From the NCBI RefSeq assembly GCF_900103535.1, contig NZ_FNHQ01000001.1, positions 62,001 to 126,000 on the forward strand: 64,000 nt of DNA, written 5' to 3'. The notes below the pieces were generated by a model that was not told where the DNA came from, ran no database searches, and saw nothing but the letters and a program-made list of their open reading frames with translations. Every line of letters begins with the position of its first letter. Within the stretch, counting starts at the first letter, position 1. Positions 4,093 through 27,964 of the stretch are shown piece after piece. Made by a program: the position numbers and the translations under genes. This DNA is from Megasphaera paucivorans. GTDB lineage: Bacteria; Bacillota; Negativicutes; Veillonellales; Megasphaeraceae.

Positions 4093-7000
4093 TTAGGCTT
4101 CCATAGATTTCTGGAAACGAACATAGGATTCACGGCGAGTCTTGGCATCAGCTTCAGTTTTAGCATACATTTCCTGTGCTGCATCAGGGAAGGATTTAGC
4201 CAAAGAAGCGTACCGAACTTCACCTTGTAAGAATTCCTGGAATTTACTGTAGTCCGGTTCTTTGGAATCAAGGCTGAACGGATTCTTGCCTGCTTCTTTA
4301 AGGGTCGGATTATAACGGTAAAGATCCCAATAACCACATGCAACTGCAATTTTTTCTTCATCCTGGCTCTTGCTCATGCCTTTGCGAATACCATGGTTAA
4401 TGCAAGGTGCATAGCAGATAACCAAAGACGGACCATTATAAGCTTCCGCTTCAGTCAGTGCTTTGATAAGCTGATTTTGATCAGCACCCATAGCAACTTG
4501 TGCTACATATACATAACCATAAGAAATTGCCATCATGCCAAGATCCTTTTTCTTTGTCTTCTTACCAGATGCAGCAAACTGCGCAATAGCGGAAGATGGT
4601 GTAGCTTTAGAGGACTGTCCGCCTGTATTCGAATAAACTTCTGTATCAAGTACAAGAATATTTACATCCTGGTTTTGTGCGAGTACGTGGTCAACACCGC
4701 CGTAACCGATATCATAGGACCAGCCATCACCACCAATAATCCAGTGGGAACGTTTAACGAGATATTTTTTCTTATCGAGGAATTCCTGAAGTGTTGCATT
4801 GCCGGCAGCTTCTTTTTCAAGAAGGGCAACTACTTTATCAGCACGTTCACGAGAACCTTCTCCTTCATACATGTTGGCAGCCCAATCACCAAGGGCAGCT
4901 TGAAGATCAGCCGAAGCTTCCGCTTTGGCTGCATCAACTTTAGCAGCCATATCTTTACGAATCTTGTCAACGCCCATGAACATGCCGAGACCAAATTCAG
5001 CAGCATCTTCAAACAAGCTGTTTGCCCAAGACGGTCCATGACCAGCTGCATTTGTTGTATACGGAGCAATCGGAGCAGAAGCACCCCAAATAGAGGAACA
5101 ACCTGTAGCATTCGCGATCATCATACGATCACCAAAAAGTTGGGTAACAAGTTTTACATACGGTGTTTCACCACAACCTGCGCATGCACCGGAGAATTCA
5201 AGCAGCGGAGTTTCCAATTGGCTGCCGATAACCGACTTCTTATTCTGCGGATTGGGTTTTGGAGCGACTTTATCCATCGCATAGTACCACTGATCCATCT
5301 TAGCAATTTGAGCATCGTCATTTTGAACCATAGTGAGAGCCTTAACCGGGCAAACATTTGCACAGCTGCCGCATTCGAGGCAATCGAGCTGGGATACGAC
5401 GATAGTTACACCATATTCTTTGCCGGATTTAGCTTTTGGAGCTACTTTAAAGCCTGCCGGAGCAGCTGCAGCTTCTTCAGCCGTAGTCAATACCGGACGA
5501 ATCGCAGCATGAGGACATACGAAAGAGCACTTGAAACAGCCAATACATTTTTCAAAATCCCAAGAAGGAACATGCATAGCCGGACCCGGTTTTTCAAATT
5601 TCGTAGTACCATTCGGCATTGTGCCATCTTCGCGTCCAACGAATGCCGCTACTGTCAAATCATCACCAACCTGATTCAACATCGGTGTAGCAACCTTCTG
5701 GAAGTATTCCGGTGCATTTGTTTCCGGAGCTGCTTCATCAACTGCATCTGCCCATGAAGCCGGATAAGCTACCTGATGGAATTCCGTAATGCCGGCATCA
5801 ACAGCCCCATTATTCATATCAACAACTTTCTGGCCTTTTTTGCCATAGCTCTTGACAATGGAATCTTTCAAATATTTAACTGCATCTTCAACAGGAATAA
5901 CCTTTGTAAGTGCAAAGAAAGCAGCCTGCATAACCATATTGATACGAGTGCCAAGGCCCAGTTTCTGACCAATAGCATCACCATTCAACGTATAGAATTT
6001 AACATGATGTTTTGCAATAGCACGTTTGATGAGAGCAGGCAATTCTTTATCAAGTTCTTCATCGGTCCATGTACAGTTCAACATGAACGTACCGCCATTT
6101 TTAATGCCTCGGAGCAAGTCAAAGCGTTTTACATACGACTGGCGATGGCAGGCAATGTAATCAGCAGCATCAATCAAATACGGCATTTCAATAGGTTTCG
6201 TCCCAAAACGAAGATGAGAAATTGTTACACCACCGGATTTTTTGGAGTCATAAGCAAAATATGCCTGCGCATACATATCGGTATGGTCACCAATAATCTT
6301 GATAGCAGATTTATTAGCACCAACAGTACCGTCAGAACCAAAGCCCCAGAATTTGCAAGCGGTAAGACCGGTTGTATCAAGCGGCATTTTTTCAGCACGC
6401 GACAGAGAAAGATTAGTAAGATCATCAACGATTCCCAGTGTAAATTCATTTTTAGGAGCTGCTGACTGCAAGTTATCGAATACAGCCATAATATCTTCAG
6501 GAAGAACATCCTTGGAACCCAGCCCAGCACGACCGCCAATTACGTCAATAGCAAGATTTTGTTCTTTTACGAAACCATTGATATCAAGGTACAAAGGTTC
6601 GCCAAGGGAGCCCGGTTCTTTTGTACGGTCAATAACAGCAATTTTCTTGACAGTCTTAGGAAGTACTGCGGACAAGTATTTTGCCGAGAACGGACGGAAA
6701 AGATGGACATTGATAGCGCCAACTTTTTCACCCTTGCCTGCCAAATATTCCACACAGCTCTTCACTGCTTCAAACATGGAACCCATAGCAACAACTACAT
6801 ATTCAGCATCAGCAGCACCTACATATGTAAAAGGCTTATATGTACGGCCGGTGATTTCAGAAATCTTATCCATATATCCTGCAACAATATCAGGCATAGC
6901 ATCATAAAGTTTATTATTAGCTTCACAATGTTGGAAATATACGTCCGGATTTTCTGCTGTGCCGCGAGTTTCCGGAGCATCCGGATTCAAGCCGCGGGCA

Positions 7001-7608
7001 CGGAAAGCCGCAACGGCATCCCAATCGATTAATTTACGGAAATTTTCAAAATCCATTACTTCAACTTTTTGGATTTCATGAGAAGTACGGAAACCATCAA
7101 AGAAGTTAATGAACGGCAAGGAGCCTTTCAAAGCAGCCAGATGAGCAACACCACCCAGATCCATTACTTCCTGAACACTGGATTCAGCCAACATACAGCA
7201 ACCAGTAGCACGAGCAGACATAACGTCCTGATGATCGCCAAAAATGCTCAATGCATGGTTAGCCAAAGCACGAGCAGCTACATGAAATACACCCGGAAGA
7301 AGTTCGCCGGCAACTTTATACATATTCGGAATCATGAGCAGGAAACCCTGGGATGCCGTATATGTAGTAGTTAAAGCACCTGCCTGCAGCGAACCGTGGA
7401 AAGCACCGGCAGCACCGGCTTCAGATTCCATTTCAACAACGTTGACAGTGTTACCAAAGAGGTTCTTCATCCCTTGGGAAGCCCATTCATCAACATGTTC
7501 AGCCATAGGCGAAGACGGAGTGATCGGGTAAATTGCGGCAACTTCAGTAAATGCATAGGAGACCCATGCAGCAGCTTCGTTACCATCCATGGTTTTGAAT
7601 TTGGTCAT
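4093..7608 (-). CDS. nifJ: Pyruvate:ferredoxin (flavodoxin) oxidoreductase, single-chain
   Basis: Oxidatively decarboxylates pyruvate to acetyl-CoA and CO2 and reduces ferredoxin: the central step of anaerobic pyruvate catabolism. The 1171 aa match the fused homodimeric enzyme (usually ~1170-1200). Seen in order: N-terminal pyruvate-binding domain (AAIYPITPSSPMAEH, ~25-40), gamma and beta-type domains, two 4Fe-4S motifs (CIGCFKCSFVCP ~690 and CLECGSCANVCP ~745), and the TPP-binding C-terminal domain with GCSSIWG and the GGDGWSYDIGYGG stretch. The start ATG at 7608 follows TAAGGAG. It is monocistronic by appearance, divergent from a LysR gene, and has a Rex-like palindrome in its upstream region. 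Confidence 0.97.
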   Translation of the reverse strand: MTKFKTMDGNEAAAWVSYAFTEVAAIYPITPSSPMAEHVDEWASQGMKNLFGNTVNVVEMESEAGAAGAFHGSLQAGALTTTYTASQGFLLMIPNMYKVAGELLPGVFHVAARALANHALSIFGDHQDVMSARATGCCMLAESSVQEVMDLGGVAHLAALKGSLPFINFFDGFRTSHEIQKVEVMDFENFRKLIDWDAVAAFRARGLNPDAPETRGTAENPDVYFQHCEANNKLYDAMPDIVAGYMDKISEITGRTYKPFTYVGAADAEYVVVAMGSMFEAVKSCVEYLAGKGEKVGAINVHLFRPFSAKYLSAVLPKTVKKIAVIDRTKEPGSLGEPLYLDINGFVKEQNLAIDVIGGRAGLGSKDVLPEDIMAVFDNLQSAAPKNEFTLGIVDDLTNLSLSRAEKMPLDTTGLTACKFWGFGSDGTVGANKSAIKIIGDHTDMYAQAYFAYDSKKSGGVTISHLRFGTKPIEMPYLIDAADYIACHRQSYVKRFDLLRGIKNGGTFMLNCTWTDEELDKELPALIKRAIAKHHVKFYTLNGDAIGQKLGLGTRINMVMQAAFFALTKVIPVEDAVKYLKDSIVKSYGKKGQKVVDMNNGAVDAGITEFHQVAYPASWADAVDEAAPETNAPEYFQKVATPMLNQVGDDLTVAAFVGREDGTMPNGTTKFEKPGPAMHVPSWDFEKCIGCFKCSFVCPHAAIRPVLTTAEEAAAAPAGFKVAPKAKSGKEYGVTIVVSQLDCLECGSCANVCPVKALTMVQNDDAQIAKMDQWYYAMDKVAPKPNPQNKKSVIGSQLETPLLEFSGACAGCGETPYVKLVTQLFGDRMMIANATGCSSIWGASAPIAPYTTNAAGHGPSWANSLFEDAAEFGLGMFMGVDKIRKDMAAKVDAAKAEASADLQAALGDWAANMYEGEGSRERADKVVALLEKEAAGNATLQEFLDKKKYLVKRSHWIIGGDGWSYDIGYGGVDHVLAQNQDVNILVLDTEVYSNTGGQSSKATPSSAIAQFAASGKKTKKKDLGMMAISYGYVYVAQVAMGADQNQLIKALTEAEAYNGPSLVICYAPCINHGIRKGMSKSQDEEKIAVACGYWDLYRYNPTLKEAGKNPFSLDSKEPDYSKFQEFLQGEVRYASLAKSFPDAAQEMYAKTEADAKTRRESYVRFQKSMEA

Positions 7609-24990: not shown

Positions 24991-25446
24991 CTACAGTGTT
25001 TCTAACAGCTTATGCAAGAGGTTGCGAAGCTTTTGTATTTCATCCTGCGAAAGTTTGACACAAGTACCCATTTTTCCCGGAATATCTCTCGCCTCCCGAC
25101 GCAAATCATTTCCGGCTTGTGTCAAGGTTACCATAACATTTCGCTCATCCTCTGGAAGACGAGATCGTTTTAAATATCCCTTTGATTCTAATTTTTTAAG
25201 CAGCGGTGTCAAGGTTCCCGAATCCAAATACAAGGAATCTCCTAATTCTTTAATATTGATTTCTTGCTTTTCCCATAAAACCATCATTGTAATATACTGG
25301 GTATATGTCAAGTCTAATTTTTTCAGATAGGGTCTATAGTGTTTAACAACTTCCTTAGATGCCGCATATAAGGGGAAACAAAGTTGATTGCAAAGTCTCA
25401 ATTGCTCATATGTCTGTGGAGTTTGCTGTTTTTCATGCTGTGTCAC
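24991..25446 (-). CDS. ohrR: MarR/OhrR family redox-sensing regulator
   Basis: 151 aa. OhrR repressors sense organic peroxides through an N-terminal Cys. Seen: LRLCNQLCFPLYAASKE near the N terminus, with the Cys in the position of the reactive Cys of OhrR, then the winged helix (LTYTQYITMMVLWE, SGTLTPLLKKLESKGYL, RLPEDERNVMVTLT) and a second Cys near KMGTCVKLS (two-Cys type possible). A GTG at 25446 with AAGG is chosen; a TTG at 25461 overlapping the trxA stop is the alternative. Last gene of the trxB-like/trxA/ohrR operon, whose promoter carries OhrR-like boxes. Confidence 0.85.
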   Translation of the reverse strand: MTQHEKQQTPQTYEQLRLCNQLCFPLYAASKEVVKHYRPYLKKLDLTYTQYITMMVLWEKQEINIKELGDSLYLDSGTLTPLLKKLESKGYLKRSRLPEDERNVMVTLTQAGNDLRREARDIPGKMGTCVKLSQDEIQKLRNLLHKLLETL

Positions 25447-25457
25447 ATGCGTTACCT

Positions 25458-25775
25458 TCAATCCAATTTTTCCTTGATAAATTGGATAAGCTGTTCTTTA
25501 GGAGCAAATCCAACCTGCATCCCAACGGATTTTCCTTCTTTAAAAACAAACAACGCCGGTACACTTTGAATTTCTAACTGTGCTGCTAAGGCAGGTGCTT
25601 CATCTACATCCACATTGAAAAAGCTTACGTTTCCCTTCATATCTTCGGCAACCTCTTCTAATACAGGAGCCAGCCGCTTGCAATGTCCACACCAAGTCGC
25701 TGAAAAATCGACTACAGCCGCTTTGCTATTCAGTACTTCATTAAATTCATTTTGAGAAATTTTTTTAATCATCAT
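25458..25775 (-). CDS. trxA: Thioredoxin with CGHC active site
   Basis: 105 aa thioredoxin fold, the standard size. Seen: VVDFSATWCGHCKRLAPVLEE (quoted parts: DFSATW, CGHC, KRLAPVL; ~22-40), the cis-Pro loop IQSVPALFVF (~70-79) and GFAPKEQL. The active site is CGHC, as in protein disulfide isomerase, rather than the usual CGPC, which should raise the redox potential. Encoded 22 nt after the thioredoxin reductase-like gene, so probably its partner. ATG with GGAGGG. Confidence 0.92.
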   Translation of the reverse strand: MMIKKISQNEFNEVLNSKAAVVDFSATWCGHCKRLAPVLEEVAEDMKGNVSFFNVDVDEAPALAAQLEIQSVPALFVFKEGKSVGMQVGFAPKEQLIQFIKEKLD

Positions 25776-25797
25776 AATTCCCTCCTAAAATAATTAT

Positions 25798-26664
25798 CTA
25801 TTTATGTCGATTTCGATCTAGATAAGATACCGCCGAAAGAGCCGCTACATTTCCCTCCCCAGCCGCTTTACTATATTGATAAGGGCGTCCCGTAATATCA
25901 CCGCAAGCAAAACAGCCTTTCATAACTGTCTCCATTTGACGGTTCACAGCGACATACCCGCCCTCCGTTGTTAATCCTGGAACCAATTGATCAGGTGCAA
26001 CACTTTCCCGTAAAATAAAGATTCCATCGACATCATACGTAGTATTCTCAGTTTGAAGCTGAGAAACCTTAGGTGTCCCAATAATACCCACAGGCTTTTC
26101 ATGAACAACTATAACGGAAGAGGATACATGAATATTTCCCTGATATAAAGGAAAATAATATACTTTGGCAGCTATTTCAGCCATAAAATCAACTTCACTT
26201 TCTTCAGCCGCATTATCCGCAATAATTGCAACCACTTTTCCTTTGTATAATGGAGCATCACAAGTAGCACAATAGCTTACTCCCCGCCCCAAAAACTGTT
26301 TTTCTCCTGCAAAAAAATGTGTTACCGTCATACCTGCAGCCAATATAATGCTTGTCGTTTCATACATAGCATTCGCCGCCGTTTGTATTTCAAAATAGTC
26401 TCCCATATTGTATATAGCGGTCGCCTTATCTTCTGTAATCACAATATTCATTATGTTCAACTGCTGCTGAAAAACCTTCACCATCTCAGCCCCGCTGTAA
26501 TTAGGCAGACCTAAGTAATTCTGGACAGTATGTGCTTTTTCCACCTTTTCACTTAAATTCTTTCTTCCTAAAAGCAGTATGTTTTTATTGCGTATCTTAG
26601 CAGTGAGTGCCGCCGAAAGTCCTGCCGGACCGGTTCCAATAATGCCTATGTCGTAACGTTCCAT
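25798..26664 (-). CDS. Thioredoxin reductase-like flavoprotein lacking NADPH motifs
   Basis: 288 aa, shorter than NADPH thioredoxin reductase (~310-320). Seen: FAD-binding GIIGTGPAGLSAAL (~6-20), the redox-active CATC (~132-135, VSYCATCDAPLYKG), and the C-terminal FAD motif CFACGDITG (~253-261). The middle domain that in NADPH-dependent enzymes carries GGGxSA and HRRxxxR instead reads VVAIIADNAAEESEVDFMAE and KVYYFPLYQG, so the NADPH-binding residues are not seen. This is the pattern described for the ferredoxin-dependent flavin thioredoxin reductases (FFTR) of clostridia, or related pyridine-nucleotide-independent forms. First gene of the operon, AGGAGG before the ATG. Confidence 0.8.
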   Translation of the reverse strand: MERYDIGIIGTGPAGLSAALTAKIRNKNILLLGRKNLSEKVEKAHTVQNYLGLPNYSGAEMVKVFQQQLNIMNIVITEDKATAIYNMGDYFEIQTAANAMYETTSIILAAGMTVTHFFAGEKQFLGRGVSYCATCDAPLYKGKVVAIIADNAAEESEVDFMAEIAAKVYYFPLYQGNIHVSSSVIVVHEKPVGIIGTPKVSQLQTENTTYDVDGIFILRESVAPDQLVPGLTTEGGYVAVNRQMETVMKGCFACGDITGRPYQYSKAAGEGNVAALSAVSYLDRNRHK

Positions 26665-26714
26665 ATATCATCCTCCTTCCATTAATAATGACATTGTTAA
26701 AAACTAATGCAAAA

Positions 26715-26773
26715 TTAAATTGTGTGCAACTTAATTTCATATTCATTGTACACAATTTAATTCTCTTTGTCAA
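26715..26773 (-). promoter_or_regulatory. Promoter of the trxB-like operon with two OhrR-like boxes
   Basis: Minus strand: TTGACA (26768-26773), 17-nt spacer, TACAAT (26745-26750). Two inverted copies of a TTAAATTGTGTRCAA element lie at 26715-26729 (plus orientation, extending as a palindrome to 26734) and 26746-26760 (minus orientation). The second covers the -10. They resemble the Bacillus OhrR operator (TACAATTAAATTGTA-type), and an ohrR gene ends the operon, so autoregulation is likely. Confidence 0.65.
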
Positions 26774-26852: not shown

Positions 26853-27795
26853 TCACCAATCAAATTTTCCCGTAATTAAATATACAAGAAGTCCTTTTTC
26901 AGCATGCCTGCGGTTTTCTGCTTCATCAAGAATAGTATCTAAATGCAAGTCTATAATTTCCTGAGAAATCTCATATCCCGGATGCATCGGCATATCGTGC
27001 ATGACCATAGCTGAACTGTCTTCCATTAATTCTTTATCGATTTGATAGGGTTCCATCAAATCAACAATCGCATTTTTCTTTTCTGTATAGTCTGGATTTG
27101 TAAAAAATTCCATATCCACCCATGTATCTGTATATACCGCATCCATACCTGCTATAACTTGCTTCAATTCATTTTTATTAATATTAGCTGGAAGTTCATG
27201 ATAATGACCTGTCCTTTTTAAAGATGCATAAAATTCATCGTCTACATCCATATCTTGACTGAACGGGGTCAAACCATACATGTTCCCCCCCCATTTTCAC
27301 AACAATTTCACAAAGAGAATTATAGCTGTTATTTTTAGCTCCGATATAGAGAACATTCACATCAAAATGACCTGTTTTTTCATAAAGAGTCAGCATATCC
27401 GCCAATGCCTGCGTCGGATGAAAGGTATTATCACAGCCATTAATAACAGGTACTGTAGAATAGCGCATAAAACAATGCGTCATTTCCGCTTTCTTAAAAC
27501 GTCCCATAATGCAGTCTACATTGCGGCCTACATATTTAATTTCACTCATAAGATCTCCAATTGTAAAATTACTGTCTTTCCACAATTGATTATACGCTTT
27601 GCCACCCAATTCTTCCATGCCGATTACAAACGATAAATATGTACGATTCGATGTTTTTTCGAATAATGTATATAATTTTTTCCCATCAAGTATATGTGCA
27701 TAAGCATCCTGATTTTTCTTGATTTTCTCAGCTAGCAATAAAATCCCCTTAAGTTCATCTACCGTGTAATCTGCAAAGCTATTCAAGTGTTTCAT
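26853..27795 (-). pseudogene. Aspartate/ornithine carbamoyltransferase-family gene, frameshifted at a G8 run
   Basis: Two overlapping frames together make one carbamoyltransferase. The first part (start ATG 27795, GGAGGG before it; in-frame stop at 27235) has FEKTSNRTYLSFVIG at the carbamoyl-phosphate site and GCDNTFHPTQALAD (HPTQ motif). The second part (stop at 26853) has AVYTDTWVD, VMHDMPMHPGYEI and AENRRHAEKGLLVYL. The break falls at eight consecutive C (27285-27292; G8 on the coding strand). Removing one G joins the frames (KMGGNMYGLTPF) and gives 313 aa, the normal family size. The STRTR motif is altered to SNRTY and HCLP to HDMP, so the substrate is not assigned. Sequencing error, phase variation, slippage or decay are all possible. 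Confidence 0.75.
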
Positions 27796-27964
27796 AATTC
27801 CCTCCATATATTAAATACATACGTCAAATGAAAATCACTCTTGTATCATATCATATATCTGCATTATTTTCAAGTTTTTATGCACATTTTTTGTAAGTAT
27901 TTACATATATGTTGAATATTTATCACAAATTACACTTTTAAAGTAGACAATGTAATTAAAGAAA

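Follow-up and report, generated by a model that had tools for sequence, protein, structure and literature searches.

An FFTR-type thioredoxin reductase, a CGHC thioredoxin and an OhrR-type regulator in a putative self-controlled operon of Megasphaera paucivorans

We analysed a 64,000-nucleotide stretch (the window) from the genome (2.9 Mb, 99.97% complete) of Megasphaera paucivorans, an anaerobe of gut type, focusing on a flavoprotein gene and its neighbours on the minus strand. The initial annotation had described adjoining flavoprotein and thioredoxin reading frames at 25458-26664, and both were found there. Directly downstream and outside these coordinates, a third gene on the same strand, ohrR, overlaps the thioredoxin gene (trx) by 4 nt. 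The three genes are:

25798-26664, minus strand: FFTR-type thioredoxin reductase, 288 aa, first gene of the operon (ORF, PDB sequence matches, trees, alignment and fold)
25458-25775, minus strand: thioredoxin, 105 aa, second gene of the operon (TIGR01068, 106 bits, cut-off 96.8)
24991-25461, minus strand: OhrR-type MarR regulator, 156 aa from a TTG whose use as the start is uncertain, third gene of the operon (PDB and NCBIfam matches)

Compared with the sister genome, dN/dS was 0.13 for the FFTR, 0.025 for the thioredoxin and 0.09 for OhrR. These low values indicate purifying selection on all three, as expected of functional genes. At 26853-27807 (minus strand), an ornithine/putrescine-carbamoyltransferase-like gene is broken up into two frames that overlap, 27235-27807 and 26853-27281. 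In the sister genome (L127:6521-7474) it forms one 318-aa frame, and the split may be a real frameshift or an assembly error.

The flavoprotein was aligned with NADPH-dependent enzymes and with its FFTR relatives, and the following motifs were located:

26620-26637, minus strand: FAD-binding GTGPAG, residues 10-15 (alignment)
26260-26271, minus strand: redox-active CATC, C132 and C135 (alignment; cysteines invariant in 38 relatives)
26203-26220, minus strand: ADNAAE, residues 149-154, where NADPH enzymes have GGGxSA (alignment)
26137-26160, minus strand: YYFPLYQG, residues 169-176, where NADPH enzymes have HRRxxxR (alignment)

The alignment to NADPH enzymes showed that GTGPAG and CATC are intact, and that the HRRxxxR stretch has become PLYQG with the remaining loop deleted. 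This bears out the earlier description of a flavoprotein that keeps the FAD motifs and CATC and lacks both NADPH motifs. Y170, P172 and Y174 are nearly invariant among the aligned FFTRs, and neither GGGxSA nor HRRxxxR is retained in any of the 96 aligned FFTR rows, which indicates that the absence of the NADPH motifs is a family trait and not decay. Chance or decayed NADPH motifs were ruled out by this family-wide loss together with the low dN/dS.

The family of the flavoprotein was then judged by sequence score, phylogeny and predicted fold. Its best PDB sequence matches were the clostridial FFTR structures 6gnc (309 bits), 6gna (305 bits) and 6gnd (300 bits); the next match, an NADPH enzyme, scored 121 bits. 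Identity was about 49% to the solved clostridial FFTRs and about 30% to NADPH enzymes. The score against the canonical NTR model TIGR01292 was 160 bits, below the curated cut-off of 343.45. The initial annotation had proposed a phylogeny against NADPH-dependent thioredoxin reductases; in our tree the NTRs separated from the FFTRs with 100% support, and the window enzyme grouped with characterised FFTRs, in a clade (95/93) holding 6gnc, 6gna and many Clostridia-side sequences. The AlphaFold2 model (mean pLDDT 89, pTM 0.73) showed an open domain arrangement, as in FFTRs. In Foldseek it matched 6gnc and 6gna over the entire chain with TM 0.90-0.91, values that known FFTR structures may have shaped through the predictor. 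For NADPH reductases the TM was about 0.56, owing to the different rotation of their two domains. All three lines of evidence support membership in the FFTR family, and the earlier reading of an FFTR-like, pyridine-nucleotide-independent reductase agrees with this. A reductase that uses NADPH through a diverged nucleotide site would share the fold and the roughly 30% identity with NADPH enzymes, but we regard it as very improbable: the flavoprotein and all 96 relatives lack both nucleotide motifs and have lost the loop, the protein groups with characterised FFTRs, and its score falls far below the NTR equivalog cut-off.

The window enzyme has the same length, FAD and CATC motifs, absent NADPH motifs, open fold and thioredoxin in the operon as the clostridial FFTRs of 6gnc, 6gna and 6gnd, structures reportedly described by Buey et al. 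in 2018, whereas their partner thioredoxin carries CGPC and that of the window CGHC. Most Negativicutes and Clostridia carry an NTR plus a non-NTR that is probably an FFTR (Anjou et al. 2024, PMC10880999); since that survey had already covered such enzymes of Negativicutes, the window enzyme is a further member of a known family. Judging from this family, ferredoxin would be its electron donor, and ferredoxin specificity itself is not readable from sequence. The genome contains six full-length PFOR-type genes, one of them inside the window, in agreement with the PFOR-bearing cell assumed earlier. The PFOR-type gene of the window lies at 4114-7599 (minus strand).

Another NAD(P)H-independent thioredoxin reductase, of the Gloeobacter DTR type, of the Desulfovibrio TRi type or using flavodoxin or some other donor, would fit the motif loss as well, since the motifs do not specify the donor and the DTR and TRi types likewise dispense with NADPH. 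The open fold is also partly common to Gloeobacter FFTR 5j60 (TM 0.79 to the AlphaFold2 model) and TRi 5nii (TM 0.72). In sequence, however, 5j60 scores 80 bits and 5nii 85, while the clostridial FFTR reaches 309. The Gloeobacter FFTR/DTR (5j60, 6xtf; PMC12796991) resembles the window enzyme in its NADPH independence, its open domain arrangement and, presumably, its ferredoxin feeding, but the two are 24% identical. The cyanobacterial FFTR has a C-terminal tail whose Trp stacks on the FAD; this tail has no counterpart in the window protein, which ends in SYLDRNRHK and contains no Trp. PFOR, hence ferredoxin reduction, is moreover abundant in the genome, and we consider a reductase of another type or donor unlikely.

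The presumed partner thioredoxin differs from its relatives at the active site:

25680-25691, minus strand: thioredoxin active site CGHC, C29-C32 (ORF translation and comparison with relatives)

CGHC in place of CGPC, already pointed out in the initial annotation, was present in both the window genome and the sister genome, which rules out a sequencing error. Thioredoxins adjoining FFTR genes in closer relatives carry CGPC, or CNPC in two cases. CGHC was confined to this genus among the loci compared and was therefore rejected as a hallmark of FFTR partners; the Pro-to-His change appears genus-specific, having arisen within this genus. Because the Pro-to-His variant of E. coli thioredoxin has raised PDI-like activity (PMC3375227), the CGHC thioredoxin, a natural analogue of that laboratory variant, may by analogy be a weaker reductant. 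The second thioredoxin of the genome (L013:1477-1800) has the active site WCEPC, so that neither thioredoxin has the standard CGPC.

The initial annotation had named a canonical NTR elsewhere in the genome as a possible true partner of this thioredoxin. No protein in the genome exceeded the TIGR01292 cut-off, the best reaching 326 against 343 bits, and this candidate was rejected. The C. difficile TrxA1/TrxB1 system (PMC10880999) likewise combines an FFTR and a thioredoxin in one stress-linked operon, but there the operon has no OhrR, the thioredoxin is WCGPC and the cell has two NTRs, unlike the window genome with no canonical NTR over the cut-off. As no NTR reaches the cut-off and the nearest protein is of the AhpF_homolog type, the strongest candidate in the genome for reducing the CGHC thioredoxin is the FFTR. 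This AhpF-type reductase, encoded beside ahpC, is the sole other close relative of thioredoxin reductases in the genome and keeps GGGFAA, with VRKNSFS replacing HRRxxxR; it could be the true reductase of the CGHC thioredoxin, with the FFTR passing its electrons directly to something else, for instance OhrR or a peroxidase. Such an arrangement is improbable, however, because the protein is a TIGR03143 AhpF_homolog that lies next to AhpC and carries a redoxin part of its own at the C terminus, and because its reading frame falls into two in this genome, whereas thioredoxin adjoins FFTR in nearly all closest relatives and an FFTR-thioredoxin pair has been crystallised (6gnd). The split AhpF_homolog gene (L004:797-2427, contig C66) consists of two overlapping frames of 346 and 205 aa; in the sister genome it is a single 555-aa frame.

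The regulator gave B. subtilis OhrR 1z91 as its best PDB match and the OhrR model NF052638 as its best NCBIfam match (179 bits, below the cut-off of 200). C28, in NQLCF, aligns with the peroxidatic Cys and is kept in 19/19 cassette OhrRs. A second Cys occurs near the resolving position in 18 of these 19, one column from C127 of X. campestris OhrR; in the window OhrR it is C134, one residue off the resolving Cys of that two-Cys protein. The window OhrR thus shares with the OhrRs of B. subtilis, X. campestris and C. violaceum the peroxidatic Cys, and its second Cys, close to the resolving position, may correspond to the resolving Cys of two-Cys OhrRs. It differs from these known systems in its target, which would be the FFTR-thioredoxin pair. 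A search for Ohr/OsmC proteins that matches 12/14 control genomes gave no match in this genome.

An FFTR gene and a trx gene with a same-strand downstream ohrR were found in the sister genome and at 17 further loci, all Clostridia-side. The order was FFTR-trx-ohrR in 15 of the 17 and trx-FFTR-ohrR in the other two (L100 and L101). The initial annotation had placed the pair under an OhrR regulator; the adjacency and the recurring linkage were found, and the control itself is putative. Neither OhrR nor thioredoxin adjoined the FFTR at any of 28 Negativicutes FFTR loci (L041-L068), and most Clostridiaceae-side (f169) FFTR loci examined have trx first and no OhrR, in contrast to the FFTR-trx-ohrR order of the window. 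Some Clostridia-side genomes carry two FFTR genes (G354, G392 (L070, L071), G745, G1316 and G1329), and at L070 and L071 the FFTR examined has neither thioredoxin nor OhrR adjoining. No report of an FFTR-Trx-OhrR cassette with an OhrR-type promoter was found in the literature searched, whose coverage was partial; the self-controlled three-gene arrangement thus seems to be undescribed, whereas the enzyme type is already known.

The origin of the cassette was examined by identity, phylogeny and synteny. A 90%-identical copy occurs in a Megasphaera sp. MAG, which confirms the earlier placement of the host in Negativicutes. Within the family, FFTR was found only in the two members of this genus, and none was detected at E 1e-50 in 15 other genomes of the family (all genus code g2). 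The closest relatives outside the genus were Clostridia-side, with up to 59% identity, and full-length Negativicutes FFTR matches showed at most 48% identity to the window enzyme. The best trees placed the window enzyme apart from the main Negativicutes FFTR clade (100/99). By sequence comparison, the window FFTR looks not to be of the lineage usual in Negativicutes and resembles the Clostridia-type cassette. The best tree, identity and synteny suggest that the cassette was probably gained laterally from a Clostridia-type donor, and the same evidence disfavours vertical inheritance from a Negativicutes FFTR. AU tests, with p 0.23 and 0.38, did not reject joining the window enzyme with the Negativicutes FFTRs, which makes lateral gain a likely rather than a certain origin. 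The GC content of the cassette equals that of its surroundings and is uninformative on transfer.

Upstream of the FFTR gene, a promoter and two box-like sites were recognised:

26745-26773, minus strand: sigma-70-type promoter TTGACA-17-TACAAT, 11/12 matches (sequence match)
26751-26765, minus strand: predicted OhrR-box-like site 1, GAGAATTAAATTGTG, within the -35/-10 spacer
26710-26724, minus strand: predicted OhrR-box-like site 2, CACAATTTAATTTTG, downstream of the -10
26713-26762, no strand assigned: inverted repeat with 17-nt arms at 26713-26729 and 26746-26762, 94% complementary and 16 nt apart

The inverted repeat spans the promoter spacer and the stretch downstream of the -10, and across the 64 kb window its 13-mer core ACACAATTTAATT is confined to these two positions, with up to one mismatch allowed. 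The B. subtilis OhrR operator has the consensus TACAATT-N-AATTGTA, which the window boxes resemble. Taken alone, the window box gave p 0.09 against the B. subtilis-type consensus, and p 0.0025 against the CACAATTNAATTGTG form, a form picked after the box had been seen. With a threshold of p < 0.1 against dinucleotide shuffles, box-like sites were enriched at OhrR-linked FFTR promoters (10/17) compared with unlinked ones (6/70; Fisher p 2e-5), the linked loci being related to each other. The arrangement of promoter and boxes seen in the window recurs at one Clostridia-side locus (L098). Because the linked loci are interrelated and seven of the 17 promoters lack a convincing box, we regard this enrichment as moderate support for OhrR control. 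Genome-wide, the short box ACAATTNAATTK was found 11 times against 12 in the reversed control, showing no excess, and no OhrR box was found at ahpC or the second thioredoxin gene. OhrR might be a mere neighbour that does not control the FFTR-trx promoter, and the seven loci with a weak or missing box and the different gene order of L100 and L101 would fit this. We think it fairly unlikely, since ohrR overlaps trx by 4 nt on the same strand, the linkage is kept across distant genomes, paired palindromes lie over the promoter, and the genome offers no Ohr for OhrR to regulate.

Taken as a whole, we consider it probable that the locus is a ferredoxin-fed FFTR-trx-ohrR operon that is OhrR-repressed, peroxide-induced and self-resetting, and was probably acquired laterally. 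Reduced ferredoxin, probably from PFOR, would pass electrons to the FAD of the FFTR, and from there they would reach the CATC disulfide and the CGHC thioredoxin without NADPH. OhrR would sit on the two palindromes overlapping the promoter and repress its own operon. Organic peroxides would oxidise Cys28, probably forming a Cys28-Cys134' disulfide, and OhrR would be released; the induced thioredoxin would then repair oxidised proteins and probably re-reduce OhrR, so that the circuit would reset itself from ferredoxin. The reset by thioredoxin is proposed by analogy with the two-Cys OhrR of C. violaceum, which thioredoxin re-reduced in vitro, whereas the glutaredoxin and lipoamide systems did not (PMC3469484).

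More tentatively, OhrR could act as a ferredoxin-referenced peroxide switch that both controls its own FFTR-thioredoxin pair and is reset by it, whereby the redox state of ferredoxin might set the peroxide response in anaerobes without Ohr; the genus-specific CGHC thioredoxin, presumably of higher potential, might tune the set point or add disulfide-isomerase-like activity. The FFTR family was defined recently, and little is known of how its members are regulated in anaerobes; the cassette provides OhrR with a probable target that is not Ohr. Recurring as it does, the FFTR-Trx-OhrR cassette would link ferredoxin, a reporter of carbon oxidation in fermenters, directly with the sensing of peroxide.
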